Origin: Mesoflavibacter zeaxanthinifaciens DSM 18436
Lineage (GTDB): Bacteria; Bacteroidota; Bacteroidia; Flavobacteriales; Flavobacteriaceae
Length of the DNA: 64,000 bases
Assembly: GCF_000422365.1 (NCBI RefSeq)
Contig: NZ_AULQ01000002.1
Coordinates: 310,001 to 374,000, forward strand
Reading direction: 5' to 3'
The stretch's first letter is position 1; the number at the start of each line of letters is the position of its first letter. Made by a program: the position numbers and the translations under genes. Under the pieces are notes generated by a model. That model made no database searches and had not been told where the DNA came from. It worked only from the letters and a program-made list of their open reading frames with translations. This document shows, piece after piece, positions 1,277 through 53,879 of this stretch.

Positions 1277-3073
1277 TTAATCATTTAGTTTTAAAACCGC
1301 CATAAATGCTTGTTGAGGTATTTCTACATTACCGACTTGACGCATACGTTTTTTACCTTTTTTCTGCTTTTCTAAAAGTTTTCGCTTACGCGAAATATCT
1401 CCACCGTAACATTTCGCTGTTACATCTTTACGTAACGCTTTAATAGTTTCTCTAGCAATAATTTTTGCTCCAATAGCAGCCTGAATTGGAATATCAAACT
1501 GTTGACGTGGTATTAATTCTTTTAGCTTTTCACACATCTTTTTACCAATATGATAAGCATTATCTGCATGTATTAAAGCCGAAAGCGCATCTACATTTTG
1601 TGCGTTAAGTAATATATCTACACGTACTAATTTTGAAGCACGCATACCAATTGGATGGTAATCAAATGAGGCATAACCTTTAGAAACGGTTTTTAAACGA
1701 TCGTAGAAGTCAAAAACAATTTCGGCTAATGGCATATCAAAACTAAGCTCAACACGCTCGGTAGTTAAGTAAGTTTGATTGGTAATTTGTCCACGTTTTT
1801 CAATACATAAACTCATTACATTACCAACAAAGTCTGCTTTTGTAATAATTGTAGCTTTAATGTATGGTTCTTCAACACGATTTAAAGTTGAAGGTTCTGG
1901 TAAATCTGATGGGTTATTAACAATAATAATTTCATCTGGATTTTTATTTGTAAACGCATGATAACTAACGTTTGGTACGGTTGTAATAACAGTCATGTTA
2001 AACTCACGTTCCAGACGTTCTTGGATAATTTCCATGTGTAACATTCCTAAAAATCCACAACGGAAACCAAACCCTAATGCAGCCGAGCTTTCTGGCTGAA
2101 ATACTAATGATGCATCGTTAAGCTGCAGTTTTTCCATAGAGGCACGAAGCTCTTCATAATCTTCAGTATCAACAGGATAAATACCTGCAAATACCATTGG
2201 TTTTACGTCCTCAAAACCGCCAATTGCATTTTTAGTTGGGTTAGCAGCATCGGTAATGGTATCTCCTACTTTTACTTCTTTAGCTTCTTTAATACCGGTA
2301 ATGACGTAACCAACATCTCCAGCTTTTATTTCTTTTTTTGGTAACTGTTTTAGTTTTAATGTACCAACCTCATCAGCACCGTAAGTTTTTCCTGTAGCGA
2401 TAAACTTAATTTGTTGATTCTTTTTAATAGAACCATTAATAACTCTAAAGTAAGTTTCTACACCTCTAAAAGGGTTGTAAACCGAGTCAAAAATTAAGGC
2501 TTGTAAAGGTTCATCTTCGTTACCTTTTGGTGCAGGAATACGCTCTATAATCGCTTTTAAAATATTGTCTACACCAAAACCTGTTTTTCCGCTAGCGTGA
2601 ATTACTTCTTCTGGGTCACAACCTAATAAATCTACAATATCATCGGTAACCTCTTCTGGATTAGCACTTGGTAGATCTACTTTATTTAAAACAGGAATAA
2701 TTTCTAAGTCATTTTCTAACGCTAAGTATAGGTTAGAAATAGTTTGTGCTTGTATACTTTGTGCTGCGTCTACGATTAGTAAAGCACCTTCGCAAGCAGC
2801 GATAGAACGAGAAACTTCATAAGAAAAATCTACGTGACCAGGAGTATCAATAAGGTTAAGTACATAATGTTCACCTTCATGAATAAAATCCATTTGAATG
2901 GCGTGAGATTTTATTGTAATACCACGTTCACGTTCTAAATCCATGCTATCCAAAAGCTGATCTTGTTTTTCGCGTTCGGTAACAGAACCAGTGTAATCAA
3001 GTAACCTATCTGCAAGTGTACTTTTACCGTGGTCAATATGTGCAATAATGCAAAAGTTTCTAATGTTCTTCAT
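1277..3073 (-). CDS. lepA: Elongation factor 4 (LepA), ribosome back-translocating GTPase
   Basis: This is a translational GTPase that acts on stalled or mispositioned ribosomes. All G motifs are visible: G1 [10 protein letters not shown] near residue 10, G2 ERGITIK, G3 DTPGH, G4 NKVD and G5 SGKTG. The LepA-specific C-terminal domain ends with the basic [15 protein letters not shown] stretch and the [12 protein letters not shown] signature. The length of 598 residues is normal and the protein is complete. A -7 box (TATATTTG) on this strand lies at 3105-3112, about 30 bases before the ATG. It is transcribed alone, divergent from the barrel gene at 3232. Confidence 0.97.
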
Positions 3074-3104
3074 AGTCCAAATATCTTCATTAAAAAAGAT
3101 GTTG

Positions 3105-3112
3105 CAAATATA
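3105..3112 (-). promoter_or_regulatory. -7 box for lepA
   Basis: On the minus strand this reads TATATTTG, an exact match to the Bacteroidota consensus TAnnTTTG, 32 bases upstream of the lepA start codon. Confidence 0.6.
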
Positions 3113-3231
3113 ATGTAATTATTAAGGATTTAAATATATTTATTAATAAGGTAAATCATTGAAAATTGCGGTTTTTCCCACAAGGAAAAGTAATTAACAA
3201 TTATTATCTTGCACGACCTATTAATTTTTAA

Positions 3232-5634
3232 ATGAAATACTTAGCCAATATTTTATTCTATTTACTGTCTTTTTATGCTATTGGGCAAGAGGCGACCATT
3301 ACTGGTCAAGTAGTAGATCAAAATAACCAACCACTATCTTTTGTTAACGTTTTAGTTACAGATGCATCAGATAATTCTATAGTAAAAGGAGCAAGTACAG
3401 ATGAGTCTGGAAAGTTTATTATTACAGGATTAGACTTTAAAACTTATATTTTGCAAGCTTCTTTTTTAGGTTTTGCAAGTTATACTGAAAATTTAACTAT
3501 AGCTAACACGACATCTGTTACAAATATTATTTTAAAAGATAGCACAGAAAATTTAGAAGAAGTTGTTGTTACAGCTAATAAACCAACCCTTAAAAAGGAA
3601 GCAGATAGATTAATTTTTAATGTTGCAAATACTTCTTTAGTAGAAGGTACAATGTTAGACGTCTTACGAAGCACACCAGGTGTTTTGGTTTTAGGCGGAA
3701 ATATTTCTGTTAAAAACAGTACTCCTACAGTATTTATTAATGGCAGAAAAGTGCAACTATCTGCATCAGAAGTAACACAGTTGTTAGAAAACTCTTCTGC
3801 AAATAGCATTCAAAAAGTAGAGGTTATTACCAATCCTTCTGCTAAGTATGATGCAGAAAGCGGAGTTGTTTTAGATATAGTAATGACTAAAAACTTAATA
3901 ACAGGTTACAGAGGTAATGTGTTTTCTAATTACACGCAAGGTGTTTTTCCTAGGTATAATGCAGGAATCAATCAGTTTTACAAAACCAATAAAGTTAATA
4001 TTAACCTTAACTACAACTATAACCAAAGTAAGATTAACAGAGATAATATTAACGAAATAAATTATTTAGATAATAACAACGCTATTTCAGAAAATTGGTA
4101 TTCTACTTTAAATAGAAATACAACTTCAAAAACACACAATGCAAACTTAAATTTTGACTATTTTTTAAGTGAAAGAAGTACGCTTAGTCTAACATCTAAC
4201 TTTTTGTATTTACCTTATTTTGATTATTTGACAAGAGGAAATACAACAGTAAATGATTTACAAGGAACTAATAATTATAATTTTAATGTAAATAATAATT
4301 CTAGTGATGATAAATATAATCTTGGAATAGATTTAGACTTTATGCAAAAGTTTAAAAATGAAAGTTCTTTAGCTATTAATGTACATATGACTAAATATGA
4401 TTATGAGAGACACCAGCAAGTAGAATCTCAGTATTATTTTGTTAATAGTAACTCTAATTTTGACACTGCTTTTACAACAGATAATAATCAAACTACAGAT
4501 ATTATAACATCACAAATAGATTACAATACGGCATTAAGTGATAACTCTTCTTTGTCTACAGGAATAAAAACGTCTGTAATTAATACAGACAGTGATATTA
4601 GTCAGTTTGATATAGATCCAAATACAGGAAATACAACATTTAACAATCAAAATTCTGATACTTATCATTATGATGAGTCTATTTTTGCTGCATATTTAGA
4701 CTATCAAATAGATTGGGAAAAATGGAGTTTTTCAGGAGGATTAAGAGTAGAGCAAACAGATATTGAAGGTCAATCTATAAGCACAAACGGATTAAACAAC
4801 CAAGATTATTTAGAATGGTTTCCTACACTTAATTTAAGTTGGCAAACTTCAAAAAATATAAATCTATACACTAATTATAAACGTAGTATTAACAGACCAG
4901 ATTATCAAGATTTAAATCCGTTTAATTTCTTTTTAAATGATAATACGATAGCTACAGGTAACCCTTTTTTACAACCAACATTTACCAACAAATTTGTTTT
5001 AGGAACATCTATAAAAAGCAGATATACTTTTGAATTTTACTACAAAGACATATCAGATCAAATACATGAAATTCCAATTCAAGACAATACCAACAACATT
5101 TTAATCTATCAACCAACCAATATTGGTAAAGCAACAGATTTTGGTTTAGATTTTATAACATATTTTGATGTTTCAAATAGCTGGTCTGTTTATTTTGTAA
5201 CATCTTTTTATAACATACAAGAAGAAGCTTTTTTAGACAATCAAATAGTTAAACAAGATCAATGGAGCAACTACTCTGTGCTTAGTAATGATTTTTCATT
5301 TTTAAAAGACAAAAGCCTATCTGCTAATTTTACAGTTATTTACACAAGTAAAAATTTACAAGGGTTTCAAACGGTAGATGGACGTTTAATATCAGATTTG
5401 TCTATTAGTAAAAAGCTATTTAAGGATAAAGCAACATTATCTTTAGCTTTTGCAGATTTATTTAATAAGCAAGATTTTACTGTACGCACTAAATATGGTA
5501 GACAAGACAATTATAACTTCCATAACCAAGATAATAGATATGTTAAGTTAGGTTTTAGTTATAAATTTGGTAATACAAGCTTACAGACTAACGAACGTAC
5601 CAAAGATAAGAAAGAAAGAGACCGATTAGAGTAA
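3232..5634 (+). CDS. TonB-receptor-like outer-membrane beta-barrel protein with carboxypeptidase-regulatory-like domain
   Basis: The protein has 800 residues. A signal peptide (cleavage likely after the ALP-like AIGQ region near residue 19) is followed by a CarboxypepD_reg-like beta-sandwich (TITGQVVDQNNQPLSFVNV, residues about 22-105), a plug-like domain (LRSTPGVLV, VFINGRKVQL, about 115-220) and a long Asn/Tyr-rich barrel. It resembles the outer-membrane beta-barrel (OMP_b-brl_3) family of Bacteroidota, relatives of TonB-dependent receptors. The C terminus is not the usual aromatic strand: a charged tail (TKDKKERDRLE) follows. There is no SusD partner nearby, so the substrate is unknown. 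It stands alone, with a shared terminator towards the convergent lipoprotein gene. Confidence 0.85.
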   Translation: MKYLANILFYLLSFYAIGQEATITGQVVDQNNQPLSFVNVLVTDASDNSIVKGASTDESGKFIITGLDFKTYILQASFLGFASYTENLTIANTTSVTNIILKDSTENLEEVVVTANKPTLKKEADRLIFNVANTSLVEGTMLDVLRSTPGVLVLGGNISVKNSTPTVFINGRKVQLSASEVTQLLENSSANSIQKVEVITNPSAKYDAESGVVLDIVMTKNLITGYRGNVFSNYTQGVFPRYNAGINQFYKTNKVNINLNYNYNQSKINRDNINEINYLDNNNAISENWYSTLNRNTTSKTHNANLNFDYFLSERSTLSLTSNFLYLPYFDYLTRGNTTVNDLQGTNNYNFNVNNNSSDDKYNLGIDLDFMQKFKNESSLAINVHMTKYDYERHQQVESQYYFVNSNSNFDTAFTTDNNQTTDIITSQIDYNTALSDNSSLSTGIKTSVINTDSDISQFDIDPNTGNTTFNNQNSDTYHYDESIFAAYLDYQIDWEKWSFSGGLRVEQTDIEGQSISTNGLNNQDYLEWFPTLNLSWQTSKNINLYTNYKRSINRPDYQDLNPFNFFLNDNTIATGNPFLQPTFTNKFVLGTSIKSRYTFEFYYKDISDQIHEIPIQDNTNNILIYQPTNIGKATDFGLDFITYFDVSNSWSVYFVTSFYNIQEEAFLDNQIVKQDQWSNYSVLSNDFSFLKDKSLSANFTVIYTSKNLQGFQTVDGRLISDLSISKKLFKDKATLSLAFADLFNKQDFTVRTKYGRQDNYNFHNQDNRYVKLGFSYKFGNTSLQTNERTKDKKERDRLE

Positions 5635-18104: not shown

Positions 18105-19550
<1,446 letters not shown>

Positions 19551-19627: not shown

Positions 19628-19670
19628 TTTTGTATTTTTTTATTTAACAAAATGCTTATTGGTTTAGCCC

Positions 19671-19753
19671 GCGTAAGCGATTGAAGTGGCATCCTTTTGC
19701 TTGCAAAAGATATAACGTAAAGCACGACCACGCCACTAAAAGCGTGGTTACGC
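19671..19753 (+). repeat. Dispersed structured repeat, copy A
   Basis: This 83-base element has inverted ends GCGTAA/TTACGC, a GGCATCC-T4 / A4-GATATAACG hairpin core and an AGCACGACC block followed by a second hairpin (CCACGC/GCGTGG). It lies just downstream of the SPFH stop codon. Confidence 0.7.
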
Positions 19754-19761
19754 CCAAAAAA

Positions 19762-20862
19762 TTACTTGTTTACCGAAAAAATATCTTTTAATTGCTCGAT
19801 CACGTTTCCGTTTCCGGCTATAGTGATTTCGCCAATTTTATCGGCTATTTTTTCTACGTATTCCATTTCTTTTAATTTGAACAACATGCTGTTGTCTTCC
19901 ATTAATTTTGCGGTATTTAACAAGCTACGTGTCGATGCGGTTTCTTCGCGTCTTGTAATTACGTTGGCTTGCGCTTTTTTCTGTGCAATTAATACTTGGT
20001 TCATGATGTCTTTCATGTCGCCTGGTAAAATTACATCGCGCATACCGGCATGTAATACGTTTACGCCTAACTTGCTGGCTTGCGCTTTTACGTCTTCTAG
20101 AACTGCTTTTGCTATTTGGTCTTTTTGCTCTAACAATTCGTCTAAGGTGTAAGCGCCAACGTATGCTCTTAAGGCTAATTGCAAGCTTGTGTACAATTGT
20201 TTTTCGTAATCTTTATTTTGCATTAATGCCGTTTCGATATCGATTACTTTGTACTGTGCGTAAAAGTTAATACGTACCGCTGCTTTGTCTTTGGTTAACA
20301 ACTCTTGACCTGACACTTCTAATTGTAACTGACGTAAATCTGCTTTTGCGATTTTTATAGTTTGATTGTTTCTCCAGAAGTGGTATGTACCGTGATCTAA
20401 GATTTTATCGAACTTATCGTCTACAATCATAATGGCTTTTTCGTATGCTGCTACTTCGAAAGCGCGTATGTATTGTCTTAATTGCATATTGGTGTATAAT
20501 GACTTGCTGATGTTTTCTGTGATTTCGATTTTACTTAAATCTACAGTAACAAATTTATAGTCTACCAACGTGTTCCAAAAGGTGTATTGACCAGCGGTTA
20601 GCACTTGCTTAAAGTTGTTGTACGTGTAAACTAAAACAATTTGATTGTCTTCTACATTTACAACGTGTAACATGTTGGCTAAAGCTTGGTCTTCTAGTAA
20701 GATTTCCAATGCTTTAGGCGCATTAAAAGCTGTAGTTAAGCTGTATGTTATAACGCTTTCGTTAAAGCCTAACCAATGTGTACCACTAGTAATTACGCGT
20801 TTGTAATCACCGTTTTTAAATACTAAACCTACGTTTCCTGCATGAATTCTTACTCTCTTCAT
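19762..20862 (-). CDS. Soluble SPFH/Band-7 (slipin-like) protein of the RtcB island
   Basis: The product has 366 residues. The C-terminal two thirds match an SPFH/slipin domain: LTKDKAAVRINFYAQYKVID (about 189-208), then ALRAYVGAYTLDELLEQKDQI and LGVNVLHAGMRDVILPGDMK, then a helical tail with AQKKAQANVITRREETA. The usual N-terminal membrane segment is absent. Instead there are three related units at residues about 8-33, 72-97 and 139-164, each with a hydrophobic strand, then K-x-V/I-L/T-x-x-G and an aromatic pair. Such proteins form large ring scaffolds. Linkage to rtcB and tRNA-like RNA fits the proposed SPFH scaffold of RNA repair. A roughly 900-base leader with tRNA-like modules precedes it. 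Confidence 0.85.
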   Translation of the reverse strand: MKRVRIHAGNVGLVFKNGDYKRVITSGTHWLGFNESVITYSLTTAFNAPKALEILLEDQALANMLHVVNVEDNQIVLVYTYNNFKQVLTAGQYTFWNTLVDYKFVTVDLSKIEITENISKSLYTNMQLRQYIRAFEVAAYEKAIMIVDDKFDKILDHGTYHFWRNNQTIKIAKADLRQLQLEVSGQELLTKDKAAVRINFYAQYKVIDIETALMQNKDYEKQLYTSLQLALRAYVGAYTLDELLEQKDQIAKAVLEDVKAQASKLGVNVLHAGMRDVILPGDMKDIMNQVLIAQKKAQANVITRREETASTRSLLNTAKLMEDNSMLFKLKEMEYVEKIADKIGEITIAGNGNVIEQLKDIFSVNK

Positions 20863-21210
20863 GATTTCTAATTATTATGTTCTGATTGCATTATTTTTTA
20901 AATATCAGAACGGTTATACATTTATAATAGGATTTTCAAGCTTATGCTGAAAATGATCTATTCTTAGTTAAAGCAAAATAAAAGTTAACCATCTTTCTTA
21001 CTACGGAAATACTACGGTTTTATAGCGCTTTACATAATGTTTAGTAGATGATTTTTAAATGTTTACACCGAAAAAATTTCAATGATTTGATTTAAAAATG
21101 AATCTTTAAAAGATTACCCAAAGTGACTTTAAATACATTAGTATTTCAAGGTGTTGTCTAGACTGCTTTTTGTAAAAATTACATAAGCTAGCCAACTTAT
21201 ACTTTGCTTT
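20863..21210 (-). other. Non-coding leader between tRNA-like modules and SPFH gene
   Basis: This 348-base stretch has no convincing gene. It contains simple hairpins on the minus strand: AAATAC-TAAT-GTATTT near 21134-21149, AATCTTT/AAAGATT near 21100-21115, an ATAAG/CTTAT stem near 21184-21201, a CCGTAGTA direct repeat near 20999-21016, and GTTCTGAT/ATCAGAAC arms at 20879-20886 and 20904-20911 just before the SPFH start. No good terminator or second promoter was found, so read-through from the tRNA-like region into the SPFH gene is plausible. Confidence 0.4.
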
Positions 21211-21215
21211 TGTTT

Positions 21216-21302
21216 TTAGAGCCATTTTTTACGTGATGGCAACACTGGTGGTCTATTTTTACAAGTGACCTTCTTGATCAAAAAAGATGGATTAAAGTCC
21301 AT
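21216..21302 (-). CDS. Possible 28-residue micro-ORF after the permuted tRNA-like module
   Basis: An ATG at 21302, nine bases after the Leu-like anticodon stem, opens a frame of 28 codons ending TAA. The peptide begins MDFNPSFLIKKV, is strongly basic and ends KKWL, with a PPVLP stretch. It overlaps a hairpin (ATGGA/TCCAT) that includes its start codon. It may be a real small protein, a leader peptide, or chance in structured RNA; only conservation would tell. Confidence 0.25.
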   Translation of the reverse strand: MDFNPSFLIKKVTCKNRPPVLPSRKKWL

Positions 21303-21310
21303 TTTCAAAA

Positions 21311-21382
21311 CTGTAACCTAAATACAGCGCGTTTACCAATTTCGCCACAAGACCGTTAGATCTTGGTAGGATTCGAACCTAC
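21311..21382 (-). ncRNA. Circularly permuted tRNA-Leu(UAG)-like module
   Basis: Read on the minus strand, parts of a tRNA appear in rotated order: T-arm GTAGG-TTCGAAT-CCTAC, 3' acceptor strand CAAGATC, linker TAAC, 5' acceptor strand GGTCTTG (seven pairs with CAAGATC, one G-U), then TG, D-arm GCG-(AAATTGGTAAA)-CGC, G, and anticodon arm CTGTA-TTTAGGT-TACAG with anticodon UAG (21318-21320). The D-arm and anticodon loop match bacterial tRNA-Leu(UAG) closely. The class II variable arm is missing. Without cutting in TAAC there is no free acceptor end, so it cannot be charged as drawn. Confidence 0.7.
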
Positions 21383-21446
21383 AATTTGAATCTATTGCTT
21401 AACCGCTAAGCTACTTCCCGTTAGAGAAGACAGGATTCGAACCTGT
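21383..21446 (-). ncRNA. Second permuted tRNA-like module with stunted anticodon arm
   Basis: The order is as in its downstream neighbour: T-arm ACAGG-TTCGAAT-CCTGT, acceptor strand CTTCTC, linker TAAC, acceptor strand GGGAAG (six pairs, one G-U), TA, and D-arm GCTT-AGCGGTT-AAGC with the conserved GG. Only 14 bases (21383-21396) follow before the next T-arm. They offer at most a weak AAT/ATT stem, so the anticodon arm is rudimentary or shared. The two modules abut directly and share the TCTAACGG junction sequence. Confidence 0.6.
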
Positions 21447-21592
21447 GTACATAGATGGGATTATTTATTTGGTCAAATAACCTAAAAACCTTCAAGCCAA
21501 GTTGAACATAAATACCTAATGCGAAACTGCAAGGATTTATACAATAGTGCTATACAGAAACACTTAACAAGACTTACTTGATATTTTAATTG
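21447..21592 (-). other. Linker between tRNA-like modules
   Basis: 146 bases without coding potential. On the minus strand there is a TTATTT-GACC-AAATAA hairpin (21465-21480) and a TTCAA-CTTGGC-TTGAA hairpin (around 21493-21508). Both may be part of the structured RNA. Confidence 0.35.
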
Positions 21593-21665
21593 TCTGAGAG
21601 ATAGGATTCGAACCTACAACCTCTCGCTTCCAAAGCGAGTAAACCAACCATCGTTATCCTCTCAG
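21593..21665 (-). ncRNA. tRNA-Pro(UGG)-like element, normal order
   Basis: Acceptor CTGAGAG/CTCTCAG (seven perfect pairs), D-arm TAAC-GATGGTTG-GTTT (three pairs, GG kept), anticodon arm CTCGC-TTTGGAA-GCGAG with anticodon UGG (21630-21632), five-base variable loop, T-arm GTAGG-TTCGAAT-CCTAT, discriminator A. Departures from a working tRNA are G instead of U at position 8, a weak D-stem and no encoded CCA. It is unlike the usual tRNA-Pro in its acceptor stem. It is best called tRNA-like; a degenerate tRNA gene is the alternative. Confidence 0.65.
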
Positions 21666-21688
21666 TTATGTTTAAGAACTTTTATTAA

Positions 21689-21717
21689 GCTTCACCAGTT
21701 CCTTCGACTGGTGAAGC
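21689..21717 (-). repeat. Perfect 11-bp hairpin in the tRNA-like leader
   Basis: Arms GCTTCACCAGT and ACTGGTGAAGC around a seven-base loop. No T-run follows, so it is a structural hairpin rather than a terminator. Confidence 0.6.
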
Positions 21718-21725
21718 GCTGCTTT

Positions 21726-21750
21726 AAAAGTCTGATTCCAAAAGACTTTT
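21726..21750 (-). ncRNA. Anticodon-like hairpin at the 5' end of the tRNA-like transcript
   Basis: Arms AAAAGTCT and AGACTTTT around loop TTTGGAATC. The first seven loop bases equal the anticodon loop of the Pro(UGG)-like element 60-100 bases downstream. It follows the promoter at 21765 by about 10 bases. It could also act as a weak terminator for the upstream TPR gene. Confidence 0.45.
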
Positions 21751-21764
21751 TGTTATCTACTCTG

Positions 21765-21799
21765 CAAATATTTTACGCTATTGCGCAATATTTTTGCGT
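21765..21799 (-). promoter_or_regulatory. Operator-promoter module of the tRNA-like/SPFH transcript
   Basis: Palindrome GCGCAA-N5-TTGCGT at 21783-21799, 10 bases, then AATATTTG on the minus strand (21765-21772), identical in spacing and -7 box to the rtcB module. Transcription should start near 21758. Confidence 0.65.
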
Positions 21800-21809
21800 A
21801 GTTTAAAAT

Positions 21810-22358
21810 TTATTTTTTCTTCTTCTTTTTCTTGTCTTTTTTGCTCTTTTTCTTCTTAGAGGCTTTTTTCTTTTTAGGTTTTATTTTGTCTTTAATCCTA
21901 GATATTTCATTATCTATATGACTTATAAAATCTCTATTGTAACCAAATGCTTTTGCTGTTTTTAATGCTTTTATGGCTTTTTTGTATACTGTTTGATACT
22001 CTAAAAGCATACCTTGATAATACCAGATTAAGCCTTTATCTATGCCTTTAACGGTTAGCGCAAAGTCTATTAAATTTTGAGCTTCTTGATAATCGTCGTT
22101 CCAGATTAGTACTAAAATGTATTTATCATAAACCTTATGAAAATCCATTTTATTAGCTAAAGCTTCTGCAAAATAGTGCTTGGCTTTTTCATAGTCGCCT
22201 AATTGTTCTGCTTGTAATTGTCCCATTAAATACAAAGCGTAAGCGTTGTTACTTTCGTAAGACAAAGCGTAGTTTAGGTTTTCTACGGTTTCTTCTAATT
22301 CGTATGGATAAGCATCTATAGCTTTAAGCACGTAGTTGTTTAACAAATTCGTGTCCAT
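21810..22358 (-). CDS. TPR-repeat protein with polylysine tail
   Basis: ATG 22358 gives 182 residues; an ATG at 22412 would add 18, but the sequence before ATG 22358 (ACAATGGA) matches that before rtcB. Helical pairs resembling tetratricopeptide repeats run from about residue 10 to 135 (NLNYALSYESNNAYALYLMG, YEKAKHYFAEALANK, YKKAIKALKTAKAFGYN). The last 30 residues are almost only Lys with a few Ser/Ala/Asp (KKKASKKKKSKK), an obvious nucleic-acid-binding or ribosome-binding tail. It sits between the micro-ORF terminator and the tRNA-like promoter, all on one strand. Function unknown; its setting suggests an RNA-linked role. Confidence 0.75.
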   Translation of the reverse strand: MDTNLLNNYVLKAIDAYPYELEETVENLNYALSYESNNAYALYLMGQLQAEQLGDYEKAKHYFAEALANKMDFHKVYDKYILVLIWNDDYQEAQNLIDFALTVKGIDKGLIWYYQGMLLEYQTVYKKAIKALKTAKAFGYNRDFISHIDNEISRIKDKIKPKKKKASKKKKSKKDKKKKKKK

Positions 22359-22419
22359 TGTTTTATGTTTTTTTAATTCTGAATTAAATTCAGTGATATT
22401 TTTTAAAATCAATTAAAAT

Positions 22420-22447
22420 GAGATGCTTCGTCAAGCTCAGCATGACA
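22420..22447. repeat. REP-like short repeat upstream of the TPR gene
   Basis: GAGATGCTTCGTCAAGCTCA then GCATGACA, an imperfect palindrome (ATGCT/AGCAT arms). The reverse form TCATGCTGAGCTTGACGAAG is a recurrent dispersed motif in flavobacterial genomes. Confidence 0.55.
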
Positions 22448-22499
22448 TTCTGTTTTTATTTTAATGTTTCGGGGAAATGTTTTAGCAGACTTGCTAATG

Positions 22500-22548
22500 G
22501 CTGAAAAACAAAAAATCCGAAACAGTTAAAAATTTGCTTCGGATTTTT
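22500..22548 (-). terminator. Terminator of the micro-ORF transcript
   Basis: Arms AAAAATCCGAA (22511-22521) and TTCGGATTTTT (22538-22548); on the minus strand the hairpin is followed by TTTTTTGTTTTT. A second hairpin, TTTTGTA/TACAAAA, precedes it at about 22552-22571. Confidence 0.8.
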
Positions 22549-22572
22549 CATTTTGTATGAATTTACAAAAGT

Positions 22573-22650
22573 TTATCTACAATAATCACGAAGCGTCACA
22601 AAAGGTGAAAGTCCTTTTGGTTCTGGTTGATATGTTATAAATAAACGCAT
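22573..22650 (-). CDS. 25-residue micro-ORF with dedicated terminator
   Basis: ATG 22650 to TAA at 22573-22575. The peptide starts MRLFITYQPEPKG, continues with LSPFVTLRD and ends YCR. An A-rich leader precedes the ATG, as is normal for Bacteroidota genes. A -7-like AATCTTTG is on the minus strand at 22709-22716, and a strong terminator follows the stop, so a transcript of about 200 bases is expected. Inside it CAAAAGG/CCTTTTG form a hairpin with a seven-base loop. It may be a small protein, a regulatory leader or a structured sRNA. I do not recognise the peptide. Confidence 0.45.
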   Translation of the reverse strand: MRLFITYQPEPKGLSPFVTLRDYCR

Positions 22651-53770: not shown

Positions 53771-53781
53771 GTAATGTTTTT

Positions 53782-53879
53782 GCGTTAGTGATAGAAACGA
53801 CATCCTTTTTTGTTTTAAAAACAAAAAAGATATAGTGGATAGCACGACCCTTTGTAGTCTGTACGAAAAAGGGTAACGC
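53782..53879 (+). repeat. Dispersed structured repeat, copy B
   Basis: This 98-base element has inverted ends GCGTTA/TAACGC, the GACATCC-T6 / A6-GATATAGTG hairpin core and AGCACGACCC block, and a CCCTTT/AAAGGG second hairpin. Its end abuts the stop codon of the addA-like gene at 53881. Confidence 0.7.

Follow-up and report, generated by a model that had tools for sequence, protein, structure and literature searches.

The window, that is, the whole stretch of 64,000 nucleotides that was analysed, contains a structured RNA of about 430 nucleotides in an intergenic region, with a TPR-like gene and a tRNA-Pro on one side and the genes for slipin and then RtcB on the other. The RNA has the same orientation as slipin and lies amid RNA-repair genes. 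The features of the locus are:

18105..19520, (-), RtcB RNA ligase of 471 amino acids (Pfam PF01139, E 1.4e-37), the sole RtcB match in the genome
19762..20862, (-), slipin, an SPFH/Band_7 protein of 366 amino acids (Pfam PF01145, E 1.1e-31)
21146..21583, (-), structured RNA of about 430 nucleotides upstream of slipin (RNAalifold, two clades)
21287..21302, (-), third hairpin ATGGA-CTTTAA-TCCAT (helix 89.7% paired)
21304..21390, (-), permuted tRNA-like module 2 including its closing helix (alignment of 55 sequences; closing helix from the MFE fold only)
21391..21455, (-), permuted tRNA-like module 1 (alignment of 51 sequences and MFE fold)
21455..21583, (-), conserved 5' domain, used for model R2 (alignment A4, 31 sequences)
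21592..21665, (-), divergent (backup) tRNA-Pro(UGG), just upstream of the RNA
21810..22412, (-), TPR-like protein, upstream of the tRNA and the RNA (TPR matches below the cut-off)

Of the 34 listed tRNA matches in the genome, the divergent tRNA-Pro(UGG) scores lowest; two housekeeping copies of tRNA-Pro(UGG) are encoded elsewhere in the genome. Three Flavo-1 RNAs (Rfam RF01705) are also found in the window, at 53777-53853 on the forward strand, 15739-15668 on the reverse strand and 19662-19733 on the forward strand, and one of them occupies the gap between the slipin and rtcB genes, on the strand opposite to theirs.

A preliminary description of the DNA had read the segment 21382-21311 as a circularly permuted tRNA with a seven-pair acceptor stem. 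The order of the parts is as described there, and the acceptor stem is upheld by covariation among relatives. The parts of this module, here called module 2, are:

21382-21366, (-), T-arm
21365-21359, (-), 3' acceptor strand CAAGATC
21358-21355, (-), linker TAAC
21354-21348, (-), 5' acceptor strand GGTCTTG
21345-21329, (-), D-arm
21327-21311, (-), anticodon arm with the loop UUUAGGU

A helix resembling a variable arm, TTCAAA at 21390-21385 with TTTGAA at 21309-21304, may close the module, as proposed by the single-sequence MFE fold alone. Module 2 can be pictured as a tRNA opened beside the anticodon arm, with the acceptor end sealed by a loop. The resemblance to tRNA-Leu(UAG) had been called almost base for base. 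The 5' half is indeed similar to tRNA-Leu, with 26 of 32 aligned positions identical to tRNA-Leu(GAG) of the same genome, but the likeness was overstated: the local score of this half is 20 against Leu(GAG) and Leu(CAA) and 18 against Leu(UAG), and the T-half scores highest against tRNAs for Pro and Arg when 32 of the 34 tRNAs of the genome are used for the comparison.

There is not one permuted module in the RNA but two, because a second lies just upstream of module 2 inside the same molecule. This module 1 is arranged as TCTAT, GTAC, T-arm, CTTCTC, TAAC, GGGAAG, D-arm and ATAGA:

21455-21451, (-), 3' strand of the anticodon stem, TCTAT
21446-21430, (-), T-arm
21429-21424, (-), CTTCTC, followed by TAAC
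21419-21414, (-), GGGAAG
21411-21397, (-), D-arm
21395-21391, (-), 5' strand of the anticodon stem, ATAGA

The anticodon-stem strands flank the module, and module 1 would thus correspond to a tRNA opened in the anticodon loop, with a loop closing the acceptor end. In both modules the two acceptor strands pair with each other, the 3' strand coming directly before the 5' strand. In three loci (L029, L072 and L078, left out of the module 1 alignment) module 1 appears by eye to have a complete anticodon arm and to be opened elsewhere.

The two modules are part of a larger fold. Unconstrained RNAalifold predictions in two clades, of 16 and 18 loci, recovered both modules and a helix that joins the ends of the RNA, UCAAG at 21581-21577 with CUUGA at 21150-21146; the exact ends given above are predicted from this closing helix only. 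The single-sequence MFE fold of the window RNA also yields both modules, though the folding energy of the single sequence is not unusual (z -1.26; 23 of 200 shuffled sequences fold at least equally well). In many relatives the third hairpin has a stem of five base pairs and the loop CUNNNAA, resembling a free anticodon arm.

The relatives are the best 80 loci obtained when genome contigs were scanned with the slipin protein, nearly all from Flavobacteriaceae; the closest among the listed slipin loci is from Tamlana, with 98% identity over slipin. In 79 of 81 loci (the best 80 and the window, a set chosen by slipin) the 5' element precedes slipin in the same orientation; it was not found in L031 and L047 at the mismatch limit used. 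Model R2, built on the 5' domain, matches five of 395 genomes of the class, all five in the family of the window, and all of these matches, found without using slipin, adjoin slipin. The filters of the large scans may have missed more distant copies of the RNA, since a similar 5' element is seen by eye in L114, from the same order, and a similar pair of modules in L121, from the same class. The exact 5' pattern of the RNA has no match in viral contigs and the RNA none in plasmids. The single phage match is a stretch of 40 bases in a tRNA-Leu, and a phage or plasmid home was discarded.

Acceptor pairing is preserved in the relatives while the sequences differ. With the 5' acceptor anchored independently by the D-arm, a mean of 6.15 of 7 pairs is formed in module 1 (79 of 79 loci parsed) and 6.26 of 7 in module 2 (77 of 79), counts that include misplaced anchors in, for example, L001, L005, L014, L017 and L075. 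When only distinct strand combinations are counted, the means are 6.04 (n=48) and 6.26 (n=53) of 7, to be compared with 3.65 and 3.72 after shuffling, where the maxima in 2000 shuffles were 4.29 and 4.28. The 3' acceptor strand has 36 different sequences in module 1 and 51 in module 2.

Alignments of the whole modules give the same result. In alignment A1, 96.9% of the pair cells of module 1 can pair (77.7% when shuffled, 0 of 500 shuffles reaching the observed value, and at most 50.8% when slid), and in alignment A2 the corresponding values for module 2 are 96.8%, 77.1%, 0 of 500 and 44.8%; these figures are to be read with the caveat that related rows beat shuffles more easily than independent rows and that the rows, 51 and 55 of 77 distinct sequences, are hand-picked with short linkers, mainly long-linker or odd loci having been left out for the sake of the aligner, a selection that favours clean pairing. 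The four helices of module 1 are each 93.1-99.6% paired, with changes on both sides in 7 of 7 acceptor, 3 of 5 T-stem, 4 of 4 D-stem and 3 of 5 anticodon-stem pairs. In module 2 the acceptor is 97.1%, the T-arm 100% and the anticodon arm 99.6% paired, and double changes occur in 7 of 7 acceptor pairs. The GG of the D-loop is present in all 51 rows of A1 and all 55 rows of A2; the conservation of the T-loop is by construction, as TTCRA was used to locate the modules.

Compensatory changes are thus found in all seven acceptor pairs of both modules, and the result goes against the two doubts raised in the preliminary description, that covariation might be missing or that the parts might vary freely as in a decayed tandem array. 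The permuted order is kept with covariation in the relatives, which makes it more than a chance arrangement: it is real and has been kept by evolution. A decayed array in which acceptor pairing is a leftover of duplication had some appeal, because in many relatives the locus is at the end of a tRNA array and tandem tRNAs mimic the module in searches. This explanation is largely refuted by the level of pairing in the distinct combinations and by the double changes, which decay would not produce, and it now has hardly any credibility.

The decayed-array explanation could also draw on tRNA calls in normal order over the modules. The Rfam tRNA model gives such a reading over both modules at 21414-21365 with 26.6 bits (cut-off 29), lacking the acceptor stem (model positions 7-64 of 71), and another over module 2 and the next hairpin with 19.6 bits under the same cut-off. 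Matches above the cut-off occur in relatives, namely L121 1543-1603 (43.5 bits), L074 4486-4558 (42.4), L064 4564-4634 (34.5), L080 4555-4623 (32.7) and L107 1543-1610 (32.5), and in three of the 22 loci given to ARAGORN (L070, L072 and L078) the program places a tRNA on the modules. A reading as ordinary tandem tRNAs was rejected because the acceptor strands in that order form only 2.86 of 7 pairs, and given this failure to pair such calls are expected from parts derived from tRNA; they show that the parts of the modules have not drifted far from tRNA.

Among the best 80 loci, relatives of the TPR-like protein lie upstream on the same strand in 59, and RtcB is found in the flanks of 33, downstream of slipin in 19 and upstream of the tRNA array in 14; seven of these 14 have only about 28-30% identity to the RtcB of the window. 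Twenty-four genomes that hold the RNA, drawn from the 47 loci without rtcB in the flanks, were searched genome-wide: 15 have a match to RtcB and nine have none, two of the nine (L048 and L072) being metagenome-assembled and possibly incomplete. RtcB was therefore not retained as a fixed partner. In L011, L021, L076 and L080 it lies about 3 kb or less from the locus, as judged from coordinates on the assumption that contig numbering follows the records. The repair nucleotidyltransferase RlaP follows slipin in two of the four loci scanned downstream (L011 and L016), while the downstream genes scanned in the other two, L040 and L064, are not repair genes. A protein of 230 amino acids with an RF-1 domain, taken to be PrfH, is encoded upstream of the TPR gene in L080.

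At least three tRNAs called by ARAGORN, and up to 16, are found upstream on the same strand in 50 of the best 80 loci, although a few of these calls may fall on the RNA itself. The backup arrays extend as far as about 5 kb from slipin and jointly cover most amino acids, and by eye their tRNAs often have N-CA instead of CCA after the acceptor. Six tRNA-like genes in the arrays (a pattern search over 80 loci) have inserts of about 50 nucleotides in the anticodon loop that start with TTTAGCTCA and have GTGAAT near the 3' end, at L011 833 and 1514, L016 1776, L046 3906, L057 4072 and L076 1493. These inserts resemble a family of small introns and would, if spliced, be unusual for bacteria. Another insert is seen by eye in tRNA-Ser(UGA) of L011, at about 230-372. 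A further tRNA-like gene, with the acceptor CCTCTT/AAGAGG and good D- and T-arms, carries an insert of over 100 nucleotides that is conserved and structured and contains a string like AGTAGGGAAGCGCATTT (L017 about 3894-4092, L072 about 3308-3512, L077 about 2920-3122, and L076 with its end near 3296); by eye this insert is like the 3' part of GOLLD RNA.

The anticodon is not fixed as UAG. The hairpin at the position of module 2 carries 18 different triplets among 78 hairpins, with UUU in 27, CAU in 14, UAG in seven and UCG in six, counts that are approximate because the third hairpin was taken for the first in L003, L063 and L078, no hairpin was obtained from L065, and spurious second hairpins were called in some loci, the window and L001 among them. 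Around the triplet the loop is far more constant: U33 is present in 53 of 54 rows of module 2, where the anticodon arm is complete, and the hairpins have R37 in 77 of 78 and A38 in 58 of 78. The CUNNNAA hairpin after module 2 also shows several triplets across loci. In module 1 there is neither a conserved anticodon loop nor a conserved U33 (T at the would-be position 33 in 21 of 51 rows).

In eight of 79 loci ACC(A) is encoded after the 3' acceptor of module 2, and seven of these eight linkers go with the anticodon CAU compared with seven of the 71 others. The ACC is likely a relic of an encoded tRNA 3' end, and its association with CAU suggests that the modules stem from tandem copies of tRNA-Met that would have lost their outer halves. 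Where the linker has no early ACC (71 cases), the position of the discriminator base is taken by T in 32, A in 25, C in 11 and G in three, a rough tally since the linker ends were set by best pairing.

Taken together, the noncoding RNA with its two permuted modules is probably a tRNA mimic similar to YrlA and not a permuted tRNA that can be charged, because the loop of module 1 is not conserved, tRNA-Leu(UAG) is encoded elsewhere and nine of the 24 genomes are without RtcB. Of the two proposals made earlier, that of a closed, unchargeable mimic is favoured, and the modules would not be matured into tRNAs. By analogy with YrlA, which recruits PNPase, the slipin-linked RNA would offer two tRNA elbows to a tRNA-binding partner and thereby bring such a protein to the slipin-linked repair system, while the conserved 5' domain and the closing helix would tie the RNA to that system. 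Some observations fit a mimic less well. The complete anticodon arm of module 2, with its nearly invariant U33, is superfluous in a pure mimic of the tRNA elbow, and the normal-order calls of the Rfam tRNA model and ARAGORN in some relatives, the fact that RtcB is not a universal neighbour and the weak match to YrlA (31.9 bits with a cut-off of 69) also speak against it.

The other readings account for parts of these data. True permuted tRNA genes, in which RtcB or another ligase would join the ends, RNase P and tRNase Z would cut out the linker and the product would receive CCA and be charged, have in their favour the rtcB genes near many loci, the encoded ACC(A) and the gene order: in known permuted tRNA genes the 3' half comes first with an intervening sequence of 1-74 bp, and in algae and archaea a bulge-helix-bulge junction and a circular intermediate are involved in their maturation, according to the available part of the source (PMC3978253). 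Both modules have the 3' half before the 5' half with pairing acceptor strands. Given that range of lengths, the four-base linker, which had been used as an argument against charging, carries no weight either way, and the short linker was dropped as proof of a mimic because intervening sequences down to 1 bp are known. Charging is nevertheless very unlikely: a joined tRNA would have no conserved anticodon and loop, as U33 is not conserved in module 1 and the triplet of module 2 drifts, the discriminator base is mixed, and a normal set of tRNAs is present, including a housekeeping tRNA-Leu(UAG) (L103). Cutting and resealing by RtcB, proposed earlier, is not supported as a general mechanism with nine genomes (chosen for having no rtcB nearby) without a match.

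The changing triplets within a constant loop could instead point to a molecular bait or sensor, in which unchargeable modules and free hairpins present fast-changing loops to anticodon nucleases and are cut instead of, or before, the real tRNAs. Cleavage may then signal or absorb the attack, and the bait, as an alarm or a decoy, may be wired to slipin, RNA ligation and the backup tRNA set, so that the neighbouring repair genes answer. The diversity of triplets would fit an arms race, and RtcB, RlaP and backup tRNAs are nearby. Against this, the triplets are dominated by UUU and CAU, an anticodon loop is not conserved in module 1, and fragments of Salmonella YrlA were, in the available portion of one report, not detected under conditions that cleave tRNA (PMC7790460). 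The bait is a weaker reading than the mimic and a doubtful one. It is still less probable, and on the whole unlikely, that the RNA forms a 5' untranslated leader on the slipin mRNA, in which enzymes that process or bind tRNA would act on the modules and control slipin and rtcB. The nearly constant position upstream of slipin on the same strand, also in the matches found without slipin, agrees with a leader, but there are about 280 bases between the 3' end of the RNA and slipin, and in 20850-22600 no terminator-like sites and promoter-like sites only at chance level were found.

The RNA can be compared with several known systems. In a review in Nucleic Acids Research in 2016, Burroughs and Aravind reportedly named a new tRNA-like molecule as the partner of SPFH/Band-7 modules. 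That RNA is likewise tRNA-like and placed next to an SPFH/Band-7 protein in a setting of RNA repair, and the RNA of the window adjoins such a gene in such a context; the two may be the same. In the portions of the literature that were consulted no description of the slipin-linked permuted RNA was found.

The permuted tRNA genes of algae and archaea share with the modules the 3' half placed before the 5' half, the junction in the anticodon loop (module 1) and the short intervening sequence, but differ from the modules, which retain no anticodon and coexist with normal tRNAs. In Anabaena a single repressor linked to stress, TrcR, controls an additional tRNA array together with rtcB and a slipin gene; there the tRNA operon, which is silent, is carried by a megaplasmid and rtcB is chromosomal, and the accessible text mentions no permuted RNA (PMC10272220). 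GOLLD RNA (RF02032) occurs near tRNA islands according to the available part of PMC12286853, and a GOLLD-like RNA is present in the same arrays as the permuted RNA in five of nine array loci scanned, but as a separate, adjacent RNA. These GOLLD-like RNAs, in Flavobacteriaceae arrays and all near the permuted RNA, score 117-136 bits (cut-off 150) and lie at L074 3714-4215, L011 3561-4038, L066 3716-4188, L076 3685-4162 and L080 3676-4151. No match to GOLLD was found in L016, L023 and L037 (E up to 1e-4), in L064 (E up to 0.01) or in 20850-21830 of the window (E up to 5).

A further comparison is with YrlA (Rfam RF02553). In the available sections of PMC8394870 the tRNA-like domain of YrlA is likened to the acceptor, D and T arms; enzymes that act on tRNA modify it and PNPase binds to it, while the basal stem holds Rsr; the structure 6CU1 of the domain is cited there. 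The TROVE protein is a repair platform with a tRNA-like partner (PMC7824862, as far as available). The preliminary description knew of no permuted tRNA established in bacteria, and this has to be modified insofar as permuted tRNA-like modules with the same order of parts are already present in YrlA Y RNAs (L116; PMC8394870, same sections). In L116, which encodes a Ro60 vWA domain and RtcB, YrlA scores 73.2 and 73.0 bits with three more matches below the cut-off, and the five form an array at 1324-2081 between the Ro60 vWA protein and RtcB.

The scores alone say little about kinship. The Rfam YrlA model gives 31.9 bits in the window and 31.1-47.7 bits where it is listed in other slipin loci, with no match at E 1e-4 in L011, L016 and L074, and, as regards a Ro60-binding stem, 11 of the 15 matches listed for the slipin loci and the window cover only about positions 17-92 of 114, as partial as both matches in the Ro60 locus L119. 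Ordinary tandem tRNA genes reach 29.8-37.9 bits with the same model, and the weak YrlA score was dropped as proof of kinship after this control. Model R1, built from modules of slipin loci only and run on 296 genomes of the phylum, matches 278 of them at E 0.01 or better and was rejected as a specific detector; among the 20 loci of its best matches 11 adjoin slipin, six are ordinary tandem tRNAs and three adjoin Ro60-type proteins (L116, L119 with TROVE and vWA, and L118 with a TROVE match below the cut-off, 19.1 of 23 bits). Because tandem tRNAs also score with both models, identical copies reaching 60.3 bits with R1, a likeness of plan is claimed and not descent from YrlA.

This likeness lies in the permuted tRNA-like module with a closed acceptor, which the slipin-linked RNA has twice over. 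T-arm, closed acceptor hairpin and D-arm follow in the same order as in YrlA, as seen in L116, so that Ro60-YrlA-RtcB loci of the phylum share this arrangement of the module, and both RNAs are encoded near RNA-repair genes, YrlA in Ro60-RtcB repair loci. The slipin-linked RNA differs from YrlA in being larger, with two modules and a conserved 5' domain of its own, and in having slipin as its partner and a score below the Rfam cut-off. No Ro60 was found in 20 genomes with the RNA or in the window's own genome, and among 120 genomes of the family Ro60 is present in one, which is 81% complete. These comparisons suggest that permuted tRNA-like modules in bacteria extend beyond the Y RNAs bound by Ro60 to slipin-linked repair loci, where there are two in each RNA with interchangeable anticodons. 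The role of tRNA mimics in bacterial RNA repair thereby becomes testable, and Ro60 and slipin offer a clean comparison of two platforms for tRNA-like RNAs.
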